Positions 53,014 through 61,337 of a stretch of 64,000 nucleotides of DNA are shown here, piece by piece. Source of the stretch: Prevotella sp. (GTDB lineage Bacteria; Bacteroidota; Bacteroidia; Bacteroidales; Bacteroidaceae); assembly GCA_017650905.1 (NCBI GenBank), contig JAGCDZ010000017.1:1-64000 (forward strand). The letters run 5' to 3'. Position 1 is the stretch's first letter. Every line of letters starts with the position of its first letter. The notes under the pieces are model-generated. The model had not been told where the DNA came from, ran no database searches, and was given only the letters and a program-made list of their open reading frames with translations. Both the position numbers and the translations under genes were made by a program.

Positions 53014-53493
53014 TCACACAATCTTAAATCTGACTCGGAAGGAGTGTTCCTGTTCATCCCAGTTTGTGCCGAGCATCTCAAAACGTCCTATCTGGGAGGT
53101 GCTACGAACATGCCTGCCAATACAAGGACACACATCATAATCGCCAATACGGACGAGCCTGATAGTCTCGGAAGCATCTTCAGGCAGACGGTCTGCAGAA
53201 ACCGCCTCAGGAAGATTGTCACGAGTGACAAACTCAAAGGTCACAGGCAGGTCCTCGTCGATGATATCATTCATCCGACGCTCAATCTCCTTCTCCTCCT
53301 GACGAGAGGGCTTGTGGTCAAGATAGAAACTCATCTTGCTCTTCTTTCGCTCAATATGAGCATTATGCGACCGTTTGCAACCAAACAGACGAATCATCGT
53401 CTGGTTCAACAGATGCTCTGCCGTGTGCGCAGGGGGAAATGACACATCCCTTTCTTGCAATATATCAGAATTATTTTGTAAATTTGCAGCCAT
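53014..53493 (-). CDS. AlaX-type tRNA-editing protein, 5' end replaced by a mobile element
   Basis: 159 residues from Met at 53493 (163 if Met at 53505 is used). It matches the free-standing editing domain of alanyl/threonyl-tRNA synthetase: zinc ligands HTAEH (His-x3-His, about residues 22-26) and CPCIGRH (Cys-x3-His, about 122-128), with SFYLDHKPS between. It hydrolyses mischarged tRNA (for example Ser-tRNA-Ala). The codons up to SFPPA come from the integrated element at 53427-58727; the native start (MDPILNDHN...EEFPPA) is stranded at 58727-58775. The promoter used now (-7 box at 53524-53531) is also element DNA. Confidence 0.85.
   Translation of the reverse strand: MAANLQNNSDILQERDVSFPPAHTAEHLLNQTMIRLFGCKRSHNAHIERKKSKMSFYLDHKPSRQEEKEIERRMNDIIDEDLPVTFEFVTRDNLPEAVSADRLPEDASETIRLVRIGDYDVCPCIGRHVRSTSQIGRFEMLGTNWDEQEHSFRVRFKIV
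53416..53450. other. attL, left junction of the integrated element
   Basis: Host alaX sequence up to TG at 53426-53427, then element sequence CGCAGGGGGAAA and the arm TGACACATCCC (53440-53450). The arm is the exact reverse complement of GGGATGTGTCA at 58703-58713 in attR. The crossover TG is shared with 58726-58727. Confidence 0.75.
53479..53486 (+). promoter_or_regulatory. -7 element of the large serine recombinase
   Basis: TAAATTTG followed by C, 25 bases before the ATG at 53511; CTTG at 53454-53457 (21 bases upstream) is a near -33 box. It lies inside the first codons of the minus-strand alaX. Confidence 0.5.
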
Positions 53494-53510
53494 AAACAAT
53501 ATCATAAGTT

Positions 53511-55625
53511 ATGAATTCGGCTACAAAGGTACAAAAAAAGGAGAATAAAACAGCAATTTACTGTAGAATTTCAACCTCCATGCAATCAACTGACAGACAA
53601 AAGGAAGATTTGTTGAAGGTTGCAGAGCGGTTTGAGCTTGAAATAGATGCAGACCACATCTATATCGACATCATCACTGGTTTTAGTATTGGCGAAGAGA
53701 GACCAAATTATTCCGCATTACTTGATGAGGTTGAAAAAGGCAATATAGACACCATCCTATTCTCAGAACTCACACGTCTTGGAAGAAGTTCCACAGAATT
53801 GTTGGCAGAAATTCAGAGACTTCAAGATAAAGGAATAGACCTATACTTCGAGAAACAAGACCTATGGGTAAGACATGGCAAACAAGATTTAGGCTCTCGC
53901 ATATTGCTGGCTGTACTCGCTATCACAGCATCATACGAGATAGAAATATTTGCAGAGAGAAGTATATCTGGAAAGATTGAGAAGGTTAGCAAAGGTGGTG
54001 GCATAGGTGGTGACAACAATGCCTATGGCTATATGAATGATGAAAACAAGATAATGGTGGTTCGTGAAGATGAGGCTGAAATAGTACGCAGAATCTTCAA
54101 CATGTATGCAGATGGGAAAAGCACCATTGATATATGTGATATTCTCAATACCGAAGGAGTGCCAACATCATATGGGACCAGAATCAAGGAATTCAAGGAG
54201 AATCGAAAGCGCAAAGGTCTAGCGCCAAAAACTTACGACCACTTCAAGGATGAAGATAACTTCGAATGGAGACCATCTGCTATTGCTAAACTGTTATGCA
54301 AGGAGCTATACAAAGGTCATAGACATGTCGTATTTCACAAGCCACTAGTTGACAAACTCGATAATAAAAAGGGTGAACAAACTGAGCGTGAAATTGTACG
54401 TACCGTTGACCTTCAACTTGAGAATTTGCGCATCGTTGATGATGAGCTATTTCAAAGAGTACAAGACAGACTGGCACAAGCAGCCTACAATAAAAATAAC
54501 GCCATGCAACACCCAAATCTGTTAAAAGCCAAACTCATTTGTGGTGAATGTGGCTCACGATTCACAGTTGGCAAACAGACTGATACCGCCACTAACTATA
54601 GTATGAACCCAAGGACATATAAGTGTTATGGTTTGGTTGACCGCAAAGACCATCCTAGAGTTTGCACTAGAGGCGCAGAAATGAGGCAGTGGCGACTAGA
54701 TGGCTTAGTGCTGACCCTATCACTTTACATGTTCGCTGAAATAAACATTGCAGACTCAAACGCTAACAAGATTGGTCAACTGACATCAGAGATTGAAGAT
54801 ATGCTCAAAGTCAAGGATGCCAAAATCAAGGAACTAAGTACCCTTACTGATGAGCACAAGAAAGTAGTATCAAGGCTGTCCCATAGTAAAGAGCCTGATG
54901 AGATAGTTAATGAGTTGATGGCAAATGAGACTATGGAATATAATACCAAACAGAAAGCTTTGGCTGACTCCATTGACAAATATTCCAGAGGCATTATATC
55001 AAGGAGAGTAACCATCAGCAAACTGCAAAGGTTAACGAGTACATACTCAAACATCAAGGACAAAATTGATGAGATACACCAAAACAAGGAACTTGTTAAG
55101 GCTATGGTTGACGAATACATTGAAGATGTGACCGTCTACAAGATACACAAGTTATGGAACTTGATAATTGTACACTATACCAATGGTGCTGAAAGTTGGG
55201 GTACAATCAAGAATGCAAGATATAAGAAAGATGAAATGTTCTTCGATGAGGCTTTCTGTCACTATGGGATAGAGTTTCGGAGTTGGATTATCAACAACAA
55301 CGACCACGCATTTACTTACGACAAGGATAATCAGACAGTTCACTACAACGGCAAAAGTGAAATCTATAGACAACTACATGCTGGTACATATACTTACGAA
55401 GAGTTTGACAATATGCTTGTCGAGAACGAATGGATTGGCAGTTTCCCACTCTATGCTTATGAGGAATATCCAGCTGCTCAAGTTCAAGACGCCAAACAAG
55501 AACAGCACCCAACAAGTGATATTGATTGGGACAAACATAATCAACAAGTCATTGATGAATTAAAGAGAAGGAAAGAACAAGAGGAACTAGAGATAGCATG
55601 TGCAGCAGCCACCGAAGAAGAATAA
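53511..55625 (+). CDS. large serine recombinase (integrase)
   Basis: 704 residues. Resolvase catalytic domain (about 13-165) with the nucleophile Ser21 in IYCRISTS and Arg-rich SELTRLGRSSTEL; recombinase domain (about 190-310: NAYGYMNDENK...EAEIVRRIFNMYADGKSTIDICDILN); zinc-ribbon domain (about 345-400: ICGECGSRF ... CTRGAEM with four Cys); a coiled coil (about 425-520), and a poorly conserved C-terminal region rich in aromatic and acidic residues. Integrates and, with a directionality factor, excises the element. Its start is 5-17 bases from the divergent alaX start and next to attL, as is usual for such integrases. Confidence 0.93.
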   Translation: MNSATKVQKKENKTAIYCRISTSMQSTDRQKEDLLKVAERFELEIDADHIYIDIITGFSIGEERPNYSALLDEVEKGNIDTILFSELTRLGRSSTELLAEIQRLQDKGIDLYFEKQDLWVRHGKQDLGSRILLAVLAITASYEIEIFAERSISGKIEKVSKGGGIGGDNNAYGYMNDENKIMVVREDEAEIVRRIFNMYADGKSTIDICDILNTEGVPTSYGTRIKEFKENRKRKGLAPKTYDHFKDEDNFEWRPSAIAKLLCKELYKGHRHVVFHKPLVDKLDNKKGEQTEREIVRTVDLQLENLRIVDDELFQRVQDRLAQAAYNKNNAMQHPNLLKAKLICGECGSRFTVGKQTDTATNYSMNPRTYKCYGLVDRKDHPRVCTRGAEMRQWRLDGLVLTLSLYMFAEINIADSNANKIGQLTSEIEDMLKVKDAKIKELSTLTDEHKKVVSRLSHSKEPDEIVNELMANETMEYNTKQKALADSIDKYSRGIISRRVTISKLQRLTSTYSNIKDKIDEIHQNKELVKAMVDEYIEDVTVYKIHKLWNLIIVHYTNGAESWGTIKNARYKKDEMFFDEAFCHYGIEFRSWIINNNDHAFTYDKDNQTVHYNGKSEIYRQLHAGTYTYEEFDNMLVENEWIGSFPLYAYEEYPAAQVQDAKQEQHPTSDIDWDKHNQQVIDELKRRKEQEELEIACAAATEEE
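53524..53531 (-). promoter_or_regulatory. element-borne -7 element driving alaX
   Basis: TACCTTTG on the minus strand, located within codons 5-7 of the recombinase gene. Transcription would start about 12 bases before the Met codon at 53505. It replaces the lost fabD-amylase operon read-through for alaX. Confidence 0.55.
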
Positions 55626-56236
55626 GCTATGTCACCCAAGTCCTATTGCTGTGAACTCCAATTCACCATATCACAGCATCAGTTCGAAAAAAAATCTGGG
55701 GACCTATTCACGACAAGATACAATCCACCTTTTTATCTTCCATATATCTCCCATGCCTCGCAGAGCAGACTCTTATGAGCAATGGAGATGATATAAGAAA
55801 GATATATGGTCACTGTTCTGATACAGTGCAGCACACTTTGTTGCCTCTTCCACCTATATTCCATAGGCGCTGAATCGTTCCCATCCCTATCAGCATTTAA
55901 CAACACTAGTGATTCTTGTCCTTTTCGCTTTCGCTCTGGAATCAAGGGGCGTTTGGTGTCAGCGTTGCCCTCACATCAGACAAGACTAGCGGAGTGTACA
56001 CGCTACTTTTAATTGGTGTAGCCTCAACCATAGTTTCTTTTAAGGTATTCAGACCCTTGTTGCAGCAGATTAAACTAATAATAACTGCTTGGACTATTGC
56101 AACTCTATTTCGTCCTTATAAATAATAATTGACATAAGAAGAAAAACAATAGTTTCACTATCATTTTTTTATTAATCGTACTATTTATATATGAAGTCAA
56201 TTCATAAATAAATATATCAATAAAGACAAAAGTAAT
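55626..56236. other. 611-bp stretch of the element without a clear gene
   Basis: No convincing gene. A plus-strand open frame at about 55916-56125 (TTG start only) encodes two hydrophobic helices (VYTLLLIGVASTIVSFKVF and QIKLIITAWTIATLF) and ends in RPYK; it could be the tail of a decayed membrane protein gene. The final 100 bases are AT-rich and probably hold the promoter of the NUMOD3-like gene, although no good TAnnTTTG is present. Confidence 0.4.
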
Positions 56237-56509
56237 ATGGACAAGACAAATAATTTACAAACAAATAGCAGGAAAGATAGACATGGGGCTAATAACCCAA
56301 TGTGGGGCAGGCATCATACGGCTATTACTAGACAGAAACAAAGTGACGCTGCAACCAAAAGATACCAGCAATACAAAAAGGCAATAGAAAACCAGCCTAG
56401 TCTATCAATGGATGAGTTTCTTGGCAGCCAGCCCATACATGAGTATATCAGTTCATTAATCAGAGAAGAAATAAACAAGTTATTATGTTACCAAATAAAT
56501 GGAAGATAA
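56237..56509 (+). CDS. NUMOD3-motif small DNA-binding protein
   Basis: 90 residues. The segment HGANNPMWGRHHTAITRQKQSDA (residues about 16-38) follows the NUMOD3 pattern (GxNNPMxGKxHTxETxxKxS), a DNA-binding module of homing endonucleases. No nuclease domain (GIY-YIG or HNH) is attached. The C-terminal half is helical (MDEFLGSQPIHEYISSLIREEINKLL). Possibly a DNA-binding accessory factor, for instance for recombination direction; that is speculation. Overlaps the next frame by 25 bases. Confidence 0.65.
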   Translation: MDKTNNLQTNSRKDRHGANNPMWGRHHTAITRQKQSDAATKRYQQYKKAIENQPSLSMDEFLGSQPIHEYISSLIREEINKLLCYQINGR

Positions 56510-56685
56510 GGCAGAAATATATCGACATGGTTAAGAGATATGATAACACCAAAGACTTAGCAGAAAAGATACAGAAGAAGTACAAGTTTATCGAATGGAT
56601 AAATGGCAACCATAACATGTTGACAGATGCCGAACTTGAATATTTACAAAAAGCCATTTGCTATGTTGAGGACATCAATTATTAG
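56485..56685 (+). CDS. 66-aa hypothetical protein of the element
   Basis: 66 residues, Lys- and Tyr-rich, predicted helical (MVKRYDNTKDLAEKIQKKYKFIEWINGNHNML and then TDAELEYLQKAICYV). Starts within the end of the NUMOD3-like gene in another frame (25-base overlap), typical of coupled phage-type genes. No family recognised. Confidence 0.5.
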   Translation: MLPNKWKIRQKYIDMVKRYDNTKDLAEKIQKKYKFIEWINGNHNMLTDAELEYLQKAICYVEDINY

Positions 56686-56806
56686 TTTCATTACCCACGC
56701 TATGTAAATTCACTTGTACAGCCTCAACGTTGTACAAGTTCTTTGTTTATGGCTATTTCACCACTTAACTAGTGAAGAAAACAACAGTTTGCCGTCTTTA
56801 TCTTCA

Positions 56807-57046
56807 TTATACTTGTGAAGATTTACGAATGCCACGCCCCCCACTCTTTGACAGCAGTACTCCCTTGCGGATGATACACTTCTTATTTTGGTAAGGGTGT
56901 TCATAAGATAAGCCGTAGTTCCGTAGGCTTGCATAAGTTATGCCAAGTTCTTCACTAGTGTAGAACTCATACATATTGGCGACACTACCATAGTAGTGAT
57001 GCTGACCATTTATCTCCAGATGGATAACTGTTCTTTCCTTCTCCAT
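56807..57046 (-). CDS. 79-aa hypothetical protein with own promoter
   Basis: 79 residues from Met at 57046 (82 from 57055). Begins MEKERTVIHLEINGQHHYYG and then SVANMYEFYTSEELGITYASLRNYG, a strand pair followed by a helix-turn-like segment that could bind DNA, and ends with a basic tail SKSGGRGIRKSSQV. No family recognised. It is divergent from the small recombinase and preceded by one copy of a 20-bp repeat that overlaps its -33 box, so it is a candidate regulator of that switch. Confidence 0.6.
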   Translation of the reverse strand: MEKERTVIHLEINGQHHYYGSVANMYEFYTSEELGITYASLRNYGLSYEHPYQNKKCIIRKGVLLSKSGGRGIRKSSQV

Positions 57047-57063
57047 AATCTCCAATTACGGTG

Positions 57064-57094
57064 CAAAGATAGGCAAAATATTGCATATATCAAA
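57064..57094 (-). promoter_or_regulatory. promoter of the 79-aa protein gene
   Basis: On the minus strand TTTG (57094-57091), 19 bases, TATCTTTG (57071-57064). The -33 box lies inside repeat copy 57081-57100. Confidence 0.7.
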
Positions 57095-57152
57095 CAAATG
57101 CAACATATTTAACTGGATTTAACCATGAAAAGTTGCATATATCAAATAAATG
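57081..57152. repeat. two 20-bp direct repeats in a divergent promoter region
   Basis: TTGCATATATCAAACAAATG (57081-57100) and TTGCATATATCAAATAAATG (57133-57152) agree at 19 of 20 positions, 52 bp apart (about five helical turns). One overlaps the -33 box of the minus promoter, the other overlaps the -33 region of the plus promoter. Likely operator pair. Confidence 0.7.
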
Positions 57153-57163
57153 TCGTAATTTTG
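57132..57163 (+). promoter_or_regulatory. promoter of the small serine recombinase
   Basis: GTTG (57132-57135, near match to TTTG), 20 bases, TAATTTTG (57156-57163). The leader to the recombinase start is about 130 bases. Confidence 0.5.
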
Positions 57164-57298
57164 CAATGTAATCAGAAGGTAACAAGTTTACTGCATGATG
57201 TACTCAAATAATAAGGTGTTATCAAAAAAAGCAAATATATCTATCTACAAGGTCAAAAAGTGATATAAAACATGTTCAACAATATATCAAAGATTAAT

Positions 57299-57940
57299 AT
57301 GATGGCAAAGACAGCAGTTATCTACAGCCGTACAAGTTCAAGCGGTTATCAGCAGAACAGACAAGACACATCAAGACAAGTGGCTGACCTCAAGGCATAC
57401 GCAGAGTATGCGCAGCTGGAAGTGCGTAAGGTGTACGAAGAACATGTGAGCGGTGCAAGCAAACAAAAGCCTACACTTGTTGAGGCTATCGACTACTGCA
57501 AGCGTGAACACGTTGACATGTTGCTGGTCTCGGAGTTGAGCCGTGTGGGTCGTAACGCATTCGAAGTGCTAGCAACAGTGAAAGATTTGGTTGACCACAA
57601 GATTAACATGTTCATGCAGAAGGAACAGTTGACGCTACTTGATGAAAAGGGCGAGCCGACACTCTTTGCACCGATTATGATAGCTACCTTGAGCACATGT
57701 GCGCAACTTGAACGTGACAGCATTAGTTTCCGTCTGAACAGTGGGCGTAAGCAGTACGTTGAGAATGGTGGTCAGTTAGGACGTAAAAAGGGCAGCGTTA
57801 AGAGCCGTGAGCAGAAGGAAAAGCAGTACAAAGAAGTGCTTGCCTACCTTCGCAAAAACTACTCCATCCGTGTGACAGCCAAACTCACCAATATATCAGT
57901 TGCAACAGTTCAACGACTGAAAAATGAGTTTGAATTGTAA
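57299..57940 (+). CDS. small serine recombinase (resolvase/invertase type)
   Basis: 213 residues from the Met pair at 57299/57302; a Met at 57272 is an alternative. Catalytic domain (about 1-145) with Ser in VIYSRTSSSG, the Arg-containing SELSRVGRNAFE, and TLSTCAQLERDSISFRLNSGR leading into helix E; then a C-terminal helix-turn-helix (about 170-213, VTAKLTNISVATVQRLKNEF). Could invert or resolve a segment, or act as a second integration enzyme. Codon use is less AT-rich than the lipoprotein beside it. Target sites were not found with certainty. Confidence 0.88.
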   Translation: MMAKTAVIYSRTSSSGYQQNRQDTSRQVADLKAYAEYAQLEVRKVYEEHVSGASKQKPTLVEAIDYCKREHVDMLLVSELSRVGRNAFEVLATVKDLVDHKINMFMQKEQLTLLDEKGEPTLFAPIMIATLSTCAQLERDSISFRLNSGRKQYVENGGQLGRKKGSVKSREQKEKQYKEVLAYLRKNYSIRVTAKLTNISVATVQRLKNEFEL

Positions 57941-57999
57941 TGTATCTAGTTAAAAATGTTCATTTTCATAACATTTTTGAATATATATCGCCTAAAAAA

Positions 58000-58030
58000 T
58001 TGGTCGTATCAGATAAAATCTCTATCTTTG
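58000..58030 (+). promoter_or_regulatory. promoter of the element lipoprotein
   Basis: TTGG (58000-58003), 19 bases, TATCTTTG (58023-58030); ATG at 58057. Confidence 0.6.
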
Positions 58031-58056
58031 CGGCAGAATAAAAAAAATATAGTAAA

Positions 58057-58569
58057 ATGAAAAAAAGTAGCATTATTATATTGATACTTACAGTACTAAG
58101 TTATACTGCATGCACTAAAGATAATGATAATGATGCGCAAAGCAATAAGTCTAACGATATTGTTGAAATGCTTACTGGTAAATGGACTATTCATGGAGTT
58201 TATAAAAAAACAGAAATTGATGGTAGGGTAAAATCATATAATTATACTGGTGAAATTGAATTCATGCATGATAAGAGTATATATATGTATGGTTCACCAT
58301 TTAGATATGATACCTTTTATGAAAATGGTATCCCCAAAACAATTCCAACTTCTATTGCAGATGTGATAAATTATTATTGGGGGTATTCTGTTGTAGATAT
58401 AGGTGGTAAAGATTATATCAGTATTGGTAATGATGAATTCAGAAATAATTTCCAAATTGTTTCTTTAACAAAAAATGCTTTCATATTAGTTGAGGATGAA
58501 GATAAAGAATATAATATAGATGGGAAAATCTATAAAGAACATTATTATGTAACAATGGAGTCAGAATGA
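58057..58569 (+). CDS. AT-rich lipoprotein cargo gene
   Basis: 170 residues. Signal MKKSSIIILILTVLSYTAC with lipobox YTAC (Cys19), an Asn/Asp-rich linker, then a small beta-rich domain (LTGKWTIHGVYKKTEI, GEIEFMHDKSIYMYG) similar in layout to lipocalin-like domains of Bacteroidota lipoproteins. Function unknown. Codons are strongly A/T-ending compared with all surrounding host genes, so it was acquired with the element. It is the only apparent cargo gene and is closed by its own terminator. Confidence 0.75.
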   Translation: MKKSSIIILILTVLSYTACTKDNDNDAQSNKSNDIVEMLTGKWTIHGVYKKTEIDGRVKSYNYTGEIEFMHDKSIYMYGSPFRYDTFYENGIPKTIPTSIADVINYYWGYSVVDIGGKDYISIGNDEFRNNFQIVSLTKNAFILVEDEDKEYNIDGKIYKEHYYVTMESE

Positions 58570-58638
58570 TACAAGAACCATTGATTTAAAGCCTAAAATT
58601 AGAATAGTTTTCAATTTTGATTCATAAAGAATATTAAA

Positions 58639-58670
58639 AAGTTCCTCTTATTAAATAGGAGGAACTTTTT
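58639..58670 (+). terminator. terminator of the cargo lipoprotein gene
   Basis: AAGTTCCTC (58639-58647) pairs with GAGGAACTT (58659-58667), then a T-run to 58670. It isolates the element from the downstream host genes. Confidence 0.85.
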
Positions 58671-58694
58671 CATAATATACTGAGAACAAGCATC

Positions 58695-58775
58695 TTAAAT
58701 TTGGGATGTGTCAAACGCAGCAGTATGCGCTGGCGGGAACTCTTCCTTGTTGTGGTCATTAAGAATGGGATCCAT
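58695..58775 (-). pseudogene. stranded native 5' end of alaX
   Basis: Starts MDPILNDHNKEEFPPAHTA and then runs into element sequence (AFDTSQI, stop at 58695). The part up to HTA belongs to host DNA and is the original alaX start; at 58727 it joins the element. It begins 10 bases after the amylase stop codon, which shows that alaX was once the last gene of the fabD-amylase-alaX operon. Confidence 0.75.
58703..58750. other. attR, right junction of the integrated element
   Basis: Element arm GGGATGTGTCA (58703-58713), then ACGCAGCAGTA and the shared TG at 58726-58727, then host sequence CGCTGGCGGGAACTCTTCC. See attL for the matching arm and crossover. Confidence 0.75.
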
Positions 58776-58785
58776 ATTGTTTGTT

Positions 58786-60441
58786 TTATGCTTTAAACTT
58801 CAACACAACGGCACAATTGGCCTGCACATTGACTGCCACAGCCTCATCACGCTTCAGGGATAGTTTCTGCTTCTCATCAGAGAGCAAATCCGTAGCCTGC
58901 ACATTTTTCTCCTTCATTTTAAGGAAATCAAAAGCATGGCTGGGAATTGTAATGCTGACGGTCTGATTGGAATCAGCGAAGTTTGCCACCACCAGCAACA
59001 CCTCTGCCCCGGCCTTTCGGATAAAGGCATATTCATGGTTATACTGGCCGTTGACATACATCAGATCGAAAGAGGCCCCATCCACGACAGCTTTCTCTGT
59101 AGTAGCAATGCCGATCACCTTGTCATAGATAGCTTTTAGATGCTTCTCCTGAGCAGTCAGTTTCCGCTCAGCAGCGCGCACGATAGTGTCCACGCTCCAA
59201 TAGTCGAAAATTGTCGTGCGACCATCATTACCACTGAAGCCCTCCTTGTCCATACCCCGCTCGCCATACTCCTGTCCGAAGTAAATCATCAGCGGATTCT
59301 GCTGCAGAAGCGCCGACACCACAAGTGCAGGCACACCTTTCTGAGCATCGCCCGCAAAGAAACTACTGGCAATACGCTGCTCATCATGGTTCTCGAGGAA
59401 ATAGAGCATATGGCTGCGAATATCGTCAGTAGCCTGCCAGGCACCAGTAATGGCGTGGGTGCTCTGATGCCCACGCATCACCTCGCGCAGGGTGTCATAC
59501 ATACCCACCTTGTCATAGAGATAGTCAAACCCAGCGGCCAGATAGTTGCGATACTCGGCAGGATTATACACCTCGCCGATGAAGATGATCTGCGGATAGG
59601 CGAACTTCACCTTATCCGTTGCCCACTGCCAGAAAGCGGCAGGCACCATCTCCGCCATATCACAACGGAAGCCGTCGACACCCTTCCTGGCCCAAAAGAG
59701 CAGAATGTCAGTCATCTTGCTCCACGTGTTGGGGATAGGATTGAAATGGCCCACGCGACCGGCATAGTAGTCGACGCCATAGTTCAGCTTTATCGTCTCA
59801 TACCAGTCGTTGATGCCGGGTGCATTGTGGAAACAGTCATTGCCCGTAGCCTTGGCAGGTTCCTCGATATAGGGTTCGTCCTCACCATGATAGAGGTCAA
59901 AGTAAGGTGTGAAGCGCTGTCCTGGACAATAATAATAATTGTTCTGTGGGTCAAAGCCCATCTGTGGATTGTCTTCTTCTCCGAGATTCTTCACACCCTC
60001 AGGCTTACAGATGCTCTGATACTGACGGGCCACATGATTAGGCACGAAATCGATTATCACCTTCATACCAGCCTTGTGCGTACGCTCAATCAGTTGTTCA
60101 AACTCCTGCATACGCTTGTCGACATCCGTAGCCAAATCAGGATCTATGTCATAATAGTCTGTGATGGCATAGGGAGAACCCGCCATACCCTTGACAATGG
60201 CAGGATGATTCCTGGTGATGCCATAGGCAGAATAGTCTGTCTGGGTGGCATGACGGATGATACCCGTGTACCAGATATGGCTCACGCCCATTTCCCTGAT
60301 GTGTTTCAGGGCAATAGGCGCGAAGTCGTTCATCTTTCCGCAACCATTCTCCTGCAGTGTCCCACCCTCTTTGCGAGTGGTGTTACGATTACCGTAGAGA
60401 CGGGTAAAGACTTGATAGAGTATTAACTTTTCACTATTCAT
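58786..60441 (-). CDS. cytoplasmic GH13 alpha-amylase-type enzyme
   Basis: 551 residues, no signal peptide. GH13 barrel with DFVPNHV (motif I), nucleophile Asp in GVDGFRCDMAEM (motif II), acid/base Glu in IIFIGEVYN (motif III), and FLENHDEQR (motif IV), plus a C-terminal beta domain. Acts on alpha-1,4-glucans such as glycogen or imported maltodextrins inside the cell. Its start overlaps the fabD stop codon by one base (TAATG), so the two are coupled. Confidence 0.92.
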   Translation of the reverse strand: MNSEKLILYQVFTRLYGNRNTTRKEGGTLQENGCGKMNDFAPIALKHIREMGVSHIWYTGIIRHATQTDYSAYGITRNHPAIVKGMAGSPYAITDYYDIDPDLATDVDKRMQEFEQLIERTHKAGMKVIIDFVPNHVARQYQSICKPEGVKNLGEEDNPQMGFDPQNNYYYCPGQRFTPYFDLYHGEDEPYIEEPAKATGNDCFHNAPGINDWYETIKLNYGVDYYAGRVGHFNPIPNTWSKMTDILLFWARKGVDGFRCDMAEMVPAAFWQWATDKVKFAYPQIIFIGEVYNPAEYRNYLAAGFDYLYDKVGMYDTLREVMRGHQSTHAITGAWQATDDIRSHMLYFLENHDEQRIASSFFAGDAQKGVPALVVSALLQQNPLMIYFGQEYGERGMDKEGFSGNDGRTTIFDYWSVDTIVRAAERKLTAQEKHLKAIYDKVIGIATTEKAVVDGASFDLMYVNGQYNHEYAFIRKAGAEVLLVVANFADSNQTVSITIPSHAFDFLKMKEKNVQATDLLSDEKQKLSLKRDEAVAVNVQANCAVVLKFKA

Positions 60442-61337
60442 TATTCACTTACTTCGATGCCATGGGCTGACACCGCTTTATTGATTTTGGCAATCATACC
60501 TTGCAGAGCCTTGCCTGGGCCGCACTCCGTGAAGTCGTCAGCACCATCGGTAATCATATTCTCCACACTCTGAGCCCAACGCACACTGCTCGTCAGCTGA
60601 GCAATCAGGTTGGCTTTGATTTCAGCGGGATCAGTGTGAGGCTTACCGTCGACATTCTGATAGACAGGACATTGAGGAGCCTTGATCTCAGTCTTCTCGA
60701 TAGCGGCCTGAAGTTCATCCTTGGCAGGCTGCATCAGCGGTGAATGGAAAGCACCGCCCACCTTCAGGGGCAAGGCACGCTTGGCACCGGCAGCCTTCAA
60801 CAGCTCGCAAGCCTCGTTGATAGCCTCAATATTACCGGAAATTACCAACTGACCAGGGTTATTGTAATTGGCACATACCACGACGTTGCCTTCGCGGTTG
60901 ATAGCAGCACAGATTTCCTCCACCTTTTCGTTGGGCAGACCGATGATGGCAGCCATCGTTGAGGGCTGAGCCTCACAGGCCTTCTGCATGGCCATCGCAC
61001 GGGCATAAACCAGTTTCAAACCATCTTCAAAACTCAGGGCACCAGCAGCCGTCAGGGCTGAGAACTCACCCAGGGAATGGCCAGCAACCATTTTCGGCTC
61101 AAAGGCATCACCCATGCAGAGGGCTGAAATCACACTATGCAGGAAAACGGCAGGCTGAGTCACCTTCGTCTGCTTCAGTTCCTCGTCAGTACCCTCAAAC
61201 ATAATATCAGTGATACGATAGCCAAGAATATCATTGGCCTTCTCAAAAAGTTCCTTTGCAAGCGGGTTGTTTTCATACAGGTCCTTACCCATACCAACAA
61301 ACTGTGCTCCCTGTCCGGGAAAAACAAATGCTTTCAT
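60441..61337 (-). CDS. fabD: malonyl-CoA:ACP transacylase
   Basis: 298 residues. FPGQGAQFVGMG near the N-terminus (about 5-16), catalytic Ser in AGHSLGEFSAL (about 89-99), conserved Arg, His in GGAFHSPLMQPA, and Gln-containing late motif GPGKALQGM. Loads malonyl groups onto ACP for fatty-acid synthesis. First gene of the fabD-amylase(-alaX) operon; other fab genes are not nearby. Confidence 0.96.
   Translation of the reverse strand: MKAFVFPGQGAQFVGMGKDLYENNPLAKELFEKANDILGYRITDIMFEGTDEELKQTKVTQPAVFLHSVISALCMGDAFEPKMVAGHSLGEFSALTAAGALSFEDGLKLVYARAMAMQKACEAQPSTMAAIIGLPNEKVEEICAAINREGNVVVCANYNNPGQLVISGNIEAINEACELLKAAGAKRALPLKVGGAFHSPLMQPAKDELQAAIEKTEIKAPQCPVYQNVDGKPHTDPAEIKANLIAQLTSSVRWAQSVENMITDGADDFTECGPGKALQGMIAKINKAVSAHGIEVSE

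Follow-up and report, generated by a model that had tools for sequence, protein, structure and literature searches.

How does a gene survive when a mobile element inserts into its coding sequence? The question is raised by alaX, the alanyl-tRNA editing gene, in the 64,000-nucleotide stretch of a Prevotella sp. contig analysed here (JAGCDZ010000017.1; hereafter the window), where an insert of 5300 bp (53427 to 58727, measured from CA to CA in the sense of alaX) lies inside the gene and carries a large serine recombinase at its alaX edge. From comparison with other genomes we conclude that an element of this kind very probably integrates in the codons of a conserved AlaX motif and rebuilds the 5′ end of alaX, and that its decay leaves the borrowed start behind.

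The insert splits alaX and supplies a new 5′ end

The body of alaX lies on the minus strand and reads from an ATG at 53493 (a second in-frame ATG is at 53505) to 53014, its N-terminus being encoded by the insert (Table 1). At the far end of the insert, just downstream of an amylase-family gene and fabD, is a 19-codon piece of alaX (MDPILNDHNKEEFPPAHTA, ATG at 58775), which the element closes in frame (HTAAFDTSQI, then a stop). The initial annotation had described alaX as split in this way, with its native start displaced to the right end, and the window sequence agrees with that description in full.

The block TGCGC is common to both element ends. Within this 5-bp shared block the core TG was chosen by arm symmetry, and the left edge is independently supported by the last flank mismatch to a second carrier, RUG12981, at 53425. 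Joining the element ends had been predicted to give a symmetric 48-bp attP with perfect 11-bp inverted arms; the arms do match at 11 of 11 positions in the symmetric register, compared with 1–5 of 11 at the eight other registers tested. A promoter-like box, TAnnTTTG, which we take to be the Bacteroidetes −7 consensus, precedes the rebuilt gene.

Empty sites and movement between hosts

If the insert is mobile, close relatives should hold an uninterrupted fabD–amylase–alaX operon with the predicted junction, as the initial annotation proposed, and this arrangement is present without an insert in G090 and G031, the non-carriers with the most similar alaX (G and L numbers are our handles for genomes and loci). 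Their alaX begins MAPILNDHNKEEFPPAHTAEHLLNQ or MDMILNDHNKEEFPPAHTAEHLLNQ. We refer to this native-style start as type a and to the element-type start (..DVSFPPAHT, or ..KFQDVSIAPMHT in the Bacteroides-type genus) as type b. The idea that the window's species merely has type b (the MAANLQNNSDILQERDVS-style start) as its native form was rejected, as the closest non-carriers are type a. A natural alaX start like that of the left copy had been named beforehand as evidence against an insertion; no such start was seen in the closest genomes, but element-type starts do occur elsewhere, in 22 of the 121 loci of the census described below, two of them being element carriers. In a tree of AlaX bodies, the nearest to that of the window are those of the carrier G103 and then of the type-a genomes G090 and G031. 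A type-a body lies within a tree distance of 0.02–0.15 of nine of ten carriers (RUG12981 to G119, 0.02; G849 to G494, 0.04; G608 to G055, 0.05), UBA4262 being without a close one.

RUG12981, an uncultured Prevotellaceae, holds the left end of the same element on a contig that stops inside the recombinase gene. Its host flanks are only 55–76% identical to those of the window in seven 200-bp bins, whereas the junction bin and the next nine full bins are 99.5–100% identical. This sharp step indicates that the element was transferred horizontally to another host at the same site. Base by base, the flanks last differ at 53425, immediately before the inferred TG core, and over the following 2122 element bases there is a single difference; the movement was therefore recent. 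In G103 (RGIG7649) flank and element have diverged to a similar extent (90% and 88% by BLAST; 83–94.5% in bins), so that shared descent is possible there; its cargo differs from that of the window.

A family of alaX-targeting elements

The large recombinase was found in ten copies, in genomes of Prevotella, Bacteroides and Porphyromonadaceae type: the window, RUG12981, G103, G608, RGIG7923 (equated with G706 through its matching contig), G730, UBA4262, Bacteroides oleiciplenus YIT 12058 (G860), G310 and G849, with the RGIG7923 copy split over two contigs. Identity to the window protein ranges from ∼100% down to 44% (G310) and 36% (G849). In all ten the recombinase gene is divergent from alaX and directly adjoins it, and a displaced native 5′ end is present at each of the nine loci in which both ends were read. 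What had been read as a single element is a member of an alaX-targeting family that occurs in several genera and includes a prophage, and element-type starts occur also without an element.

The recombinase is rare, being present in 3 of 399 family genomes (the window genome, which is counted, G310 and G173), in 5 of 398 genus genomes and in 3 of 158 genomes of the genus of G310. The match in G173 stands outside the ten (32% identity, broken, and without alaX as a neighbour in the sequence read), as do other, mostly N-terminal matches of 29–37%, including a second one in G310 (35%), and L063 and L064 at 26–27%.

Where both ends share one contig, the elements measure (CA to CA) 5.3 kb in the window, 6.1 in G730, 7.2 in G103, 8.1 in G849, 8.3 in G608, 11.4 in B. 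oleiciplenus and 24.2 kb in G310. The G310 element (G310:C1:3326876-3351094; L097, L052) is a prophage, with terminase, portal and capsid genes identified by Pfam. No phage record covers 80% of its recombinase, and the phage matches listed are all below 30% identity, as are the plasmid matches listed for the window recombinase; in viral contigs, one search gave a single hit of 28% identity and another gave none. The 8-kb element of G849 encodes a primase-helicase protein (DnaB_C/PriCT_2), and no structural gene was evident by eye in its list of open reading frames (ORFs). The B. oleiciplenus element carries a candidate defence protein (PDC-S28, E 1.6e-300; L061:18355-20877) and a phospholipase/patatin-like protein (L061:15311-17269).

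One attachment-site plan, and arms that are also codons

Nine att pairs were compared: those of the ten copies except RUG12981 and UBA4262, together with the relic G789 described below, the RGIG7923 ends being taken from two contigs. All follow a common plan, which in the sense of alaX reads arm, 12 bp, CA, 12 bp, inverted arm. At register 0 the pairs match at 11, 10, 10, 10, 8, 9, 10, 10 and 9 of 11 positions, against 1–6 of 11 at the other eight registers. In G849 both arms are AAGTATGTTTA, compared with a GGATGTGTCA-like arm elsewhere, and because the left arm is coding, the QDVS of AlaX is replaced there by QSMF. Integrase site and AlaX residues have thus changed together in that lineage. 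G310 has TGTTA in both arms and MDVL in AlaX.

The right half of attP also resembles alaX codons: all nine displaced ends read H, then T or I, three residues, N or D, and T or I, with HTA in five of the nine (for example HTAEHNTSQI and a stop in G103). Every displaced end is closed in frame, eight of them at ten codons past the crossover and that of B. oleiciplenus at thirteen; the element therefore seals off the displaced fragment. At the opposite end, all ten loci tested (nine carriers and G789, with RUG12981 excluded) have a TAnnTTTG box 28–39 bp ahead of the ATG that alaX borrows. The proposal that the element re-supplies a start with a promoter-like box holds up on comparison.

These observations suggest the following mechanism. 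The attB would be formed by the codons of the conserved AlaX motif, F/Y-P-P-A/M before the crossover and H-T-A-E-H after it. We assume that HTAEH provides the HxxxH zinc ligands of AlaX, which would explain how one attB serves several genera. The circular form of the element would carry an attP of two inverted recombinase-binding arms, each 12 bp from the CA core, and the large recombinase would be the enzyme that acts on this circle. Recombination would split alaX at the first histidine codon of the motif, moving the native, promoter-proximal 5′ end to the far end of the element, where an element stop codon would close it. The gene body, joined to an element 5′ end that contributes 22 codons, their start and the promoter-like box, would still encode AlaX, and the attP arm would serve as both integrase site and AlaX coding sequence. 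The rebuilt gene is presumably transcribed and its product active. Later decay of the element would leave the cell with the borrowed 5′ end. Of this scheme, the sequences themselves establish where and in which polarity the element inserts, the empty sites, the transfer, the common att plan, the displaced ends, the relics and the joint change of arms and codons in G849.

Element-type starts without an element

Among the 121 alaX loci of the census 96 are type a, 22 are type b and 3 are other. The census joined 56 listed genus-g1 loci, mostly the best-scoring and so biased to the window's kind, with 65 others that had E below 1e-40 and came from 80 genomes of the genus of G310. Two type-b loci, in G103 and G310, have a whole element, and the other 20 are without one. 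One of these, G789 (L103:12383-14577), holds an insert of 2.2 kb that keeps the two att arms, along with a displaced type-a end and, at the divergent position beside alaX, a recombinase-like stub of ∼16 residues (MDSKVAIYCRVSSQMQ..). Three more, G788, G778 and G812, have displaced type-a ends 639, 557 and 202 bp away (CA to CA) and gave no recombinase hit. Leaving G789 out, a displaced end within 700 bp upstream was found at 3 of 19 recombinase-less type-b loci compared with 0 of 96 type-a loci (p 0.004); restricting the comparison to loci with at least 700 bp of upstream sequence gave 3 of 16 and 0 of 94 (p 0.003). We infer that these relics arose from element loss, by internal deletion.

On the AlaX body tree (129 rows, with few columns and weak forks) the start type needs 26 changes, compared with a mean of 27.3 when labels were shuffled (142 of 500 shuffles were as low), and the starred branches alone force 9 changes. 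We tentatively entertain, at slightly less than an even chance, a broader view in which a whole clade of serine integrases, belonging to phages and to small elements, has evolved an attP arm that is at the same time N-terminal codons of the target, the specificity of the integrase thereby writing part of AlaX, and in which repeated gain and decay have replaced the alaX promoter and start many times across the Bacteroidales. If so, a mobile element would serve a core proofreading gene as an exchangeable 5′ end, and a ratchet would be possible in which loss of the rebuilt end costs the gene.

Several other features of these loci were observed. In G788 (L091:489-1128) and G778 (L095:421-978) one GxxExxY-type gene lies between the displaced and rebuilt alaX ends; that of G788, the sole gene there, is PD-(D/E)XK_3 by Pfam (PDDEXK_3), and that of G778 is a look-alike. 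The G789 insert has two small ORFs with an ELSDDELDxVAGG leader-like motif of the kind found in class II bacteriocin or ribosomally synthesised peptide (RiPP) precursors. In at least 18 genus genomes alaX lies in a stop-free open frame of 719–752 aa (for example G124:C1:805187-805615), which suggests an in-frame amylase–AlaX fusion.

Alternative explanations

The alternative that bears most directly on the relics is that type-b starts are an old native allele whose 5′ end was captured by the elements, the relics being due to local rearrangement or gene conversion. Type b without a recombinase does occur in both genera, at 19 loci besides G789; at the seven in Prevotella no displaced type-a end was found, two of these having less than 700 bp of upstream sequence; and some type-b loci form a small clade (L104, L105, L107). 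A native allele, however, fits poorly with the presence of displaced type-a ends ahead of three type-b genes that lack a recombinase and ahead of none of the 96 type-a genes, with the recombinase-like stub at the divergent position in G789 and with the scatter of the start label on the tree. We therefore regard it as possible without thinking it probable. That the small serine recombinase of the window, rather than the large one, moves the element is highly improbable: it has homologues in six other elements, but, the large gene itself apart, no match to it was found in two elements that have the common att plan, that of B. oleiciplenus and the G310 prophage (L052 part, the search not extending to L097), and it is the large gene that always stands at the alaX edge. 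An assembly chimera or unrelated rearrangement can be set aside as next to impossible, for although the host assembly is fragmented (110 contigs) the left junction is the same in ten assemblies, including the 1.9-Mb scaffold of B. oleiciplenus YIT 12058 and the single-contig G310 and G849. How the window element travels is a separate matter. It could be a satellite of alaX-targeting phages, as opposed to self-sufficient or conjugally mobilised, given that the ∼24-kb prophage at alaX uses a 44% identical recombinase, that the G849 element pairs a primase-helicase with no evident structural gene, and that no relaxase was found among the six window-element ORFs scanned. Against this, Pfam detected neither a primase nor a packaging gene in the window element (a helper in the same genome was not searched for), and we consider a satellite rather unlikely.

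Other points count against integration, rebuilding and decay as we propose them. The arm co-variation in G310 is weak, because TGTTA is also the right arm in G103, G730 and G789, where the left arm is TGTCA. The TAnnTTTG count covers element-type loci only, with no control set, and transcription and activity of the rebuilt gene are predicted. No circular attP was found in the window's own assembly, in the 398 genus genomes or in viral contigs, with patterns that would miss some variants. The G789 stub was recognised from its pattern and by eye, tblastn at 1e-4 giving no hit to it. No remnant was seen at 16 of the 19 recombinase-less type-b loci, and the remnants in G788, G778 and G812, close kin on the tree, may represent one event; type b may also be a native allele captured by elements. 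Finally, a Pfam scan of the six window-element ORFs gave no transfer genes, relaxase and conjugation genes included, oriT not being searched for.

Relation to known systems

SXT/R391 elements use a tyrosine integrase, and SXT reportedly brings a new 5′ end and promoter to prfC, as Hochhut and Waldor are said to have described in 1999. These elements are the nearest analogue of those at alaX, which likewise supply a replacement gene end. SXT/R391 integrative and conjugative elements integrate in the 5′ portion of prfC, also a translation gene, and restore a functional gene (PMC12210918). They are, however, 79 to >110 kb in size with transfer genes of their own, whereas the alaX elements have a serine integrase and span 5–24 kb, no relaxase was found in that of the window, and the integrase arm is itself target coding sequence.

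Convergence of diverse large serine recombinases on one conserved coding site is known for Mg-chelatase/protease and prolyl isomerase genes (Durrant et al. 2022, PMC10083194); the target genes are there spoken of as disrupted, whereas alaX is rebuilt, and the words 'alanyl', 'Bacteroid' and 'Prevotella' are absent from the main text. Serine-recombinase integrative and mobilizable elements, similarly small and site-specific, are described in a review (PMC5704250) as disrupting dispensable genes on integration, in contrast to the preserved gene and the lack of a detected relaxase here. The attP of integrative islands usually carries replacement sequence for the target (PMC10111431), in identity blocks extending up to ∼250 bp; in the alaX element, ∼65 bp from start codon to core, at one of its ends, give 22 replacement codons unlike the native start. 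The available text of PMC12884075 does not mention 'alanyl'. A literature search for alaX or alanyl-tRNA editing together with (large) serine recombinases returned no paper, a broader one showed none with alaX among the papers listed, and alaX may sit unremarked in supplementary target tables. Integration that restores its target thus has precedents, mainly among tyrosine integrases; no paper of the literature searched describes relics of this kind or a serine-integrase arm that also supplies codons of its target. The alaX elements would show a serine integrase using active-site coding sequence as a broad-host target without gene loss, supply, for Bacteroides and Prevotella, candidate attP/attB pairs together with their natural variants, and provide a case, open to testing, in which mobile elements rewrite how a translation-fidelity gene starts and is controlled.

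Genes and features of the window element

Table 1. Features of the split alaX locus and its insert (window coordinates).
Feature	Position	Strand	Remarks
Rebuilt alaX	53014..53493	-	host body with element-encoded N-terminus (MAANLQNNSDILQERDVSFPPA, then HTAEH...); tRNA_SAD E 1.5e-9
Left crossover block TGCGC (attL)	53426..53430		inferred crossover dinucleotide TG at 53426-53427 (CA in alaX sense)
attP arm TGACACATCCC	53440..53450		also AlaX codons R-D-V-S
Large serine recombinase, 704 aa	53511..55625	+	divergent from alaX, starts 17 bp away; Resolvase 1.3e-24, Recombinase 2.6e-17, Zn_ribbon_recom 1.8e-5
Promoter-like -7 box TAnnTTTG (TACCTTTG)	53524..53531	-	38 bp upstream of alaX ATG, within start of recombinase gene
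Non-coding stretch	55715..56115		common to five Prevotella-type elements; 81-94% identity to the four others
90-aa protein, NUMOD3-like motif	56237..56509	+	in four other Prevotella-type elements
66-aa protein	56485..56685	+	in four other Prevotella-type elements (G730 weakly)
82-aa protein	56807..57055	-	also in three Prevotella-type elements and B. oleiciplenus element (66%)
Small serine recombinase (resolvase/invertase type), 222 aa	57272..57940	+	Resolvase 9.2e-27
Variable cargo, putative lipoprotein (by eye), 170 aa	58057..58569	+	no Pfam family
Terminator-like inverted repeat	58632..58674		near right end
attP' arm GGGATGTGTCA	58703..58713
Right crossover block TGCGC (attR)	58726..58730
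Displaced native alaX 5′ end (MDPILNDHNKEEFPPAH)	58726..58775	-	matches native starts of G090/G031
Alpha-amylase-family gene	58786..60441	-	host operon, upstream of native alaX
fabD	60441..61337	-	named from translation by inspection, no family search

The large recombinase has the domains of a large serine recombinase, its coiled coil being seen only through a weak, below-cut-off match to APG6_N. Among the homologues of the small recombinase, that of G849 is only 28% identical. The 170-aa cargo protein had no homologue in the eight element loci searched, and the Pfam scan detected no terminase, portal, capsid or helicase gene in the window element. An Rfam scan of the element gave only two sub-threshold plant-miRNA matches, at 58628-58678.

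The non-coding stretch, found also in L046, L058, L059 and L089, had no Rfam match and none in the phages searched. Single-strand folds gave weak z values of −1.6 and −1.4, and a consensus fold had two-sided changes in 9 of 103 pairs, three of them adjacent, with an unfavourable net covariation term. Among 200 genus genomes the stretch was present only in the two carriers. It sits between the recombinase and 90-aa genes and is still 81% identical in G730, whose recombinase is 52–53% identical; it possibly represents an RNA or an origin.

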